Of a DNA stretch of 64,000 nt, positions 27,806 through 28,027 are shown piece after piece. The stretch comes from Physcomitrium patens (lineage: Eukaryota > Streptophyta > Bryopsida > Funariales > Funariaceae): positions 8,799,176 through 8,863,175 of the forward strand of contig NC_037253.1 of assembly GCF_000002425.4 (NCBI RefSeq), written 5' to 3'. The translations under genes and the position numbers were made by a program. Position 1 is the first letter of the stretch. Each line of letters begins with the position of its first letter. The notes beneath the pieces were generated by a model that ran no database searches, was not told the DNA's origin, and worked only from the letters and a program-made list of their open reading frames with translations.

Positions 27806-27817
27806 CACTCTTGTCAA
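27806..27817 (-). promoter_or_regulatory. B primer-binding site, self-complementary to the transcript start
   Basis: Two bases after the 5' LTR the minus strand reads TTGACAAGAGTG. This is perfectly complementary, 12 of 12, to the LTR segment CACTCTTGTCAA at 27997-27986, the predicted first bases of the transcript. No sequence with a TGG (tRNA-CCA complement) is present at this position. This is the arrangement known for self-priming Tf1-type retroelements. Confidence 0.65.
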
Positions 27818-27989
27818 AATGTCAAGGACATGAATCTCGAAGAAAGGGAATCCTCAATACACTCTTCTATCACTGAAGAGAACTAAAAAGTCACTCAAAA
27901 CGTGATGTAATATTAAATAGAATGGTTATTGCCAAAAAACAAGAAAACTAAAAAGTCTTGAAACAAGATTAAGACTAGAAAGGCGTTGA

Positions 27990-28015
27990 CAAGAGTGAAG
28001 AAGGCTTCACTCTTG
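27990..28015 (-). promoter_or_regulatory. B LTR hairpin overlapping the predicted transcript start
   Basis: Perfect 11-bp inverted repeat with a 4-base loop. Arms are at 27990-28000 and 28005-28015. One arm overlaps the segment that would pair with the primer-binding site. Confidence 0.6.
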
Positions 28016-28019
28016 CCTC

Positions 28020-28027
28020 TATATATA
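28020..28027 (-). promoter_or_regulatory. B LTR TATA box
   Basis: TATATATA on the minus strand, in the sense direction of the element. A start site 28-32 bases downstream would fall at about 27995-27999. Confidence 0.55.

Follow-up and report, generated by a model that had tools for sequence, protein, structure and literature searches.

Element B, an old and decayed Ty3/Gypsy chromovirus of moss that likely belongs to the Tcn1 branch of the Tf1/sushi group, carries just past its 5′ LTR a site that is the complement of the predicted 5′-terminal 11 nt of its RNA. Reverse transcription of this element was very probably primed by that RNA end and not by a tRNA. We infer this, with good support, from the site itself, the TATA spacing, the absence of a TGG-type site and two diverged relatives, A and C, that lie with B in the window (the whole 64-kb stretch of DNA analyzed). 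The RNA of B would start at A27996, and its 5′ 11 nt would fold back onto the primer site, after which the element's RNase H would cut behind nt 11. From the 3′ end so released, synthesis would proceed across U5 and R, and the resulting cDNA would be transferred to the 3′ copy of R. In each new copy the primer site would be rewritten from the primer, so that primer and site would stay in step.

Element B Is an Old Insertion That Likely Belongs to the Tcn1 Clade

Element B is a full Ty3/Gypsy insertion on the minus strand, flanked by the target duplication AAAAG (Table 1). Its 5′ and 3′ LTRs are separated by a K2P distance of 0.070 (549 sites), which indicates an old insertion, and the element is decayed, with broken reading frames. 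A Pfam search matched Retrotrans_gag, RVP_2, RVT_1, SH3_Tf2-1 and Chromo, each in a separate piece, so that gag, protease, reverse transcriptase (RT) and integrase with a C-terminal chromodomain, the feature set of the Tcn1 clade, are all present.

Table 1. Positions of the features of element B and of its relatives A and C
Feature	Position in window	Strand	Remark
B 5′ LTR	27820..28368	-	ends ..GACA at 27820, TT next
B 3′ LTR	22084..22662	-	
AAAAG target duplication of B	28373-28369 and 22083-22079		5′ LTR side and after 3′ LTR, respectively
B polypurine tract	22678-22666	-	precedes 3′ LTR
B integrase C terminus	23229..23852	-	SH3_Tf2-1 E 3.6e-15; Chromo E 2.4e-15
B reverse-transcriptase piece	25395..25946	-	RVT_1 E 1.4e-19
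B primer-binding site TTGACAAGAGTG	27806..27817	-	2 nt past 5′ LTR
Predicted first 11 nt of B RNA, the predicted self-primer ACTCTTGTCAA	27986..27996	-	start predicted from TATA spacing
TATATATA box in B 5′ LTR	28020..28027	-	first T to start-site A, 31 nt
B5 hairpin over predicted U3/R border	27988..28017	-	13 bp in fold, one G-U
B3 hairpin (3′ LTR of B)	22255..22278	-	10 bp, perfect
A primer-binding site TTGATAAGAGT	21343..21353	-	9/11 pairs with start-site 11-mer 21531-21521
C primer-binding site TTGACAAGAAT	59804..59814	-	10/11 pairs with start-site 11-mer 59991-59981
C5 hairpin over predicted start of C	59986..60009	-	10 bp, perfect

The host was read from a DUF7733 ORF at 37399-38076, whose best named matches, both covering 88% of the query, are Ceratodon purpureus (84% identity) and Sphagnum tenellum (80%); since both are mosses, we take the window to be moss DNA, a host within the moss and club-moss range of Tcn1 in plants. 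On the same ground we reject a seed-plant host, with which self-priming here would have been a new finding. The chromodomain of B aligns with those of CDY/CDYL and carries F, W and Y at positions which, following HP1, we take to form the aromatic cage. Such a cage is found in 95% of Tcn1 elements but also in 59% of Chlamyvir and 56% of Galadriel elements, according to the available text of PMC6317226, and it is therefore not specific to Tcn1. The RT search scored 7992 candidates, of which 7944 passed, and we used the best 120 of these. Among these best 120 of 7944, the top match from a named organism to the RT piece of B is the fern Adiantum nelumboides (73% identity), and over the same 101 residues the identity is 64% to a snake PEG10, which is presumably sushi-derived, and 60% to the seed plant Tanacetum, the last of the 120. 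In a tree of four window rows and the best 120 of 7944 matches (all 124 kept), with few named anchors and unsettled bootstrap, A, B and C fall within a 54-row clade that holds the fern sequence (100/97) and whose remaining rows are unnamed or a bacterial record that is likely contaminated; named references for Tcn1, Tf1, Tekay, CRM, Reina and Galadriel do not figure anywhere in this tree. Relatives of the RT piece on viral contigs were sought by pattern, and none of the 34 pattern matches was confirmed. Moss host, caged chromodomain, an RT apparently on the sushi side and self-priming layout, taken together, make B a likely Tcn1-clade chromovirus of the Tf1/sushi group.

Two database records deserve mention in their own right. 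The Adiantum nelumboides sequence (P0018) is basal in its clade, and the available part of a PCR survey reports ferns without Tcn1-like clones (Novikova et al. 2010, PMC2864245), so that either ferns hold such elements or this record is contaminated. A record labeled Kitasatospora herbaricolor (P0103), with an RT 78% identical to that of B over 75% of the query, lies near B in the tree; judging from its sequence, this bacterial record is likely contaminated by plant DNA.

Neighbors of Element B in the Window

The window contains three related Ty3/Gypsy elements, A, B and C, all on the minus strand, and all three are decayed, with no young or active copy among them. Element A (15698-21404) carries seven tandem units of ~815 bp, whose shifted self-alignments are 99.4-99.6% identical and each of which comprises the U5 end, the primer site, the leader and part of gag. 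At the six junctions listed, gag is joined to U5 at the motif ACAAGAGTG, which itself partly matches the primer site. Either an old element has recently expanded in tandem, or the units are an effect of assembly. Element C (50190-60344) has a 3′ LTR split by ~1.2 kb (50375-51599) and contains two pairs of inverted fragments, 52649-52967 with 56307-56625 and 53273-53803 with 55472-56001, which perhaps represent a nested insertion with inverted ends.

Also on the minus strand, at 1719-10275, lies element D, a Gypsy element unrelated to A, B and C. Its LTRs are 94.7% alike, and it has an open pol frame of 934 aa (3570-6371) and a 641-aa frame without a Pfam match (7049-8971). Upstream of B, a 389-aa frame on the minus strand (29981-31147) matches a right-handed beta-helix (Beta_helix, E 1e-7).

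The Probable Primer Site Is the Complement of the Predicted RNA 5′ End

The sequence TTGACAAGAGTG (27817-27806) is the exact 12-nt complement of CACTCTTGTCAA (27997-27986) in the 5′ LTR of B. The predicted start, A27996, is the A of TTCACTCTTG and is preceded by C27997; positions 27817-27807 of the site pair with the predicted first 11 nt, and 27806 pairs with C27997. The primer of Tf1 is 11 nt long. A distance of 31 nt from the first T of the TATA box is the expected spacing for a TATA-dependent plant start, and the same 31 nt are found in the 5′ LTRs of A and C and in the 3′ LTR of B, where they are counted from TATTTAT. In agreement with the preliminary description, we read from the sequence the perfect 12-nt complement, the box about 30 nt upstream of the start and the lack of a TGG-type (tRNA) site behind the 5′ LTR; the site, which had been placed two bases inside the LTR, actually lies two bases outside it.

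A first alternative is that a tRNA or half-tRNA served as the primer of B, the match to the LTR being incidental. Half-tRNA sites may begin without TGG, and in plants they belong to Ty1/copia groups only, as far as the available text of PMC6317226 goes. A search for tRNA genes in the window found none. The first 30 nt behind the 5′ LTR are free of TGG in all three elements, whereas the unrelated element D has one 4 nt past its LTR. The match moreover sits at the expected start site in all three elements, and no other LTR 11-mer pairs as well as the one at that site: it makes 9, 11 and 10 pairs in A, B and C, against 8, 7 and 8 for the next-best 11-mer (538 LTR 11-mers tested in B). A tRNA primer is thus very unlikely, and self-priming is the reading that we retain.

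According to a second alternative, the palindrome at the start site (see below) acts as DNA, in the manner of a promoter or transcription-factor element, and part of it was duplicated to give the site behind the LTR, which plays no part in priming. Its U3 arm, CAAGAGTG, does repeat 8 nt of the B primer-binding site, and the motif recurs in the LTR, with an extra ACAAGAGTG in the U5 of A and in that of the 3′ LTR of C. The match between start site and primer site, however, extends past the palindrome (TTGA/TCAA), and the site occupies the usual place of a primer-binding site, two bases past the LTR, where no other primer site is seen. We consider this explanation highly improbable and return to priming by the RNA's own 5′ end.

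The three elements agree in this arrangement despite pairwise LTR distances of K2P 0.20-0.24, and what makes the match in B convincing is that all three, diverged as they are, have it where the start site is expected. Among 5060 internal 11-mers of B, the observed pairing with the respective start-site 11-mer was reached by two for A, by none for B (11/11) and by one for C. A more permissive control, which accepted 12 perfectly matched bases from any of six offsets to any place in the LTR, was passed by six internal windows out of 5080 (overlapping) and by one mononucleotide shuffle out of 20,000; matches of this length to some part of the LTR are thus rare, yet do occur. A chance match in decayed, AT-rich DNA, for which these six windows speak, is hardly credible in view of the position-fixed counts and of the agreement among the three elements.

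The relatives also differ at one informative base. The predicted RNA base 2 is C in the 5′ LTR of A and in both LTRs of B but T in both LTRs of element C, and the site of element C bears an A, not a G, matching this T. This suggests that the base-2 pair of element C changed on both sides, likely before the element inserted. The change concerns one pair in one element, and both substitutions are transitions typical of decay; C-to-T decay may have struck both sides in parallel, their context being the same. The 3′ LTR of element C carries a further change at the base adjoining base 2, and the second LTR copy of A stops short of the start site, so that base 2 can be read only once in that element.

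The RNA 5′ Region Is Predicted to Pair Primer and Site in A and B

We folded the RNA of each element from its predicted start to beyond the primer site and compared it with 200 shuffles per element. In the RNA of B starting at A27996, primer and site are paired with a mean pair probability of 0.93, and the fold is more stable than most shuffles (z -2.48; 6/200 equally stable). In A, primer and site are likewise paired (probability 0.66); the stability of the fold (z 0.30; 120/200 shuffles equally stable) counts against self-priming. So does the prediction for present-day C, in which primer and site are unpaired, with a probability of 0.00 at the predicted start and 0.05 at best (z -0.86; 39/200 shuffles equally stable). 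The central duplex of the Tf1 "pretzel" is thereby predicted in B and A and absent from the prediction for C. For the two flanking duplexes, the best stem was reached in 35/60 and 57/60 column shuffles and does not rise above chance.

A Hairpin Spans the Predicted RNA Start

The preliminary description had also noted a perfect 11-bp hairpin at 27990-28015, which is present, with a 4-nt loop, as the perfect part of a longer stem (Table 1); what it missed is the consequence that, given a start at A27996, the hairpin could fold only in the RNA's copy of the 3′ LTR. The 3′ arm of the B5 hairpin overlaps the predicted self-primer; the other arm would with this start belong to U3, and the 5′ end of the RNA would lack it.

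Perfect inverted repeats containing G/C (arm of at least 10 with three or more G/C, loop of 3-12) number only three in the 64 kb, namely B3, B5 and C5, and all lie across a predicted start. The three-G/C filter was picked after seeing 185 unfiltered repeats (overlapping registers counted), of which the 15 listed are all (AT)n. Forty first-order Markov windows held a mean of 0.58 such hairpins, three being reached in 1 of the 40. As B5 and B3 derive from one ancestral sequence, the independent cases are only two. Between the hairpins of B and C, one stem pair is altered on both sides; in A the stem is lost (-3.2 kcal/mol).

In the predicted folds, adding 18-24 nt of U3 to the start of the B RNA lowers the probability of primer:site pairing from 0.93 to at most 0.04. 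Binding of the site to the R segment is predicted at -12.8 kcal/mol without and -5.9 kcal/mol with the arm for B5, and at -7.0 and -4.5 kcal/mol, respectively, for B3. The hairpin may be modeled as a lock that distinguishes the two ends of the RNA, hiding the 3′ copy of the self-primer and leaving the 5′ end free for the site; it would also mark the border between nt 11 and 12 as the landing place of the first cDNA after strand transfer, and lock, primer and site would co-evolve as three linked sequences. In stemless A, however, at least 10 nt of added U3 likewise abolish the predicted primer:site pairing, so the effect of the U3 extension is not specific to the hairpin, which counts against a lock. 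We put this model forward tentatively and hold it to be rather unlikely. If the lock is real, it would explain how an RNA with identical primer sequences at both ends uses the 5′ copy only. The hairpin is the less expected part of these observations, beside a self-priming that had already been predicted, and the available texts on self-priming elements of plants and mosses and on Tf1 yielded no description of a start-site hairpin.

Comparison with Known Systems

The proposal in the preliminary description that a plant element self-primes in the manner of Tf1 stands as the best reading of the layout, which is shared by all three elements. Its novelty does not: the mode, thought there not to be described for plant chromoviruses, had already been predicted for the Tcn1 clade by Neumann et al. 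2019 (PMC6317226), in whose available text a tRNA-type site is missing from most Tcn1 chromoviruses of mosses and club mosses; self-priming is predicted for these, and for none of the other groups of plant chromoviruses. Counting against this mode is a Selaginella Tcn1 element for which, in the available part of the report, neither a tRNA site nor self-priming was found (Novikova et al. 2010, PMC2864245).

Like B, the Tcn1 chromoviruses of mosses and lycophytes combine a moss host and a caged chromodomain with a sushi-side RT, which is the apparent placement of the RT of B as well (PMC2864245, PMC6317226), and they share with it the lack of a TGG-type primer site and the predicted self-priming (PMC6317226). 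Unlike the analysis of B, the available text of these papers gives no base-by-base match to a start site, and the start-site hairpin of B was not found described there (PMC2864245, PMC6317226). Among plant elements outside the Ty3/Gypsy superfamily, the TAR lineage of Ty1/copia (with Houba and Osr-1) is, like B, predicted to self-prime (PMC6317226).

The RNA of the Tf1 group adopts a "pretzel" of three duplexes, according to the available text of PMC10085805, whereas in A, B and C the flanking duplexes are not above chance. Tf1 and Tf2 of Schizosaccharomyces pombe, Tj1, Tosmo1-3 and Tcry1 nevertheless resemble B in that they carry a site complementary to the 5′ end of their own RNA (PMC10085805, PMC4600332, in their available parts). 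Element B thus offers a candidate base-level anatomy for a priming mode that the accessible literature predicts in moss Tcn1 elements (PMC6317226) and calls unclear in the Tcn1 element of Selaginella (PMC2864245).
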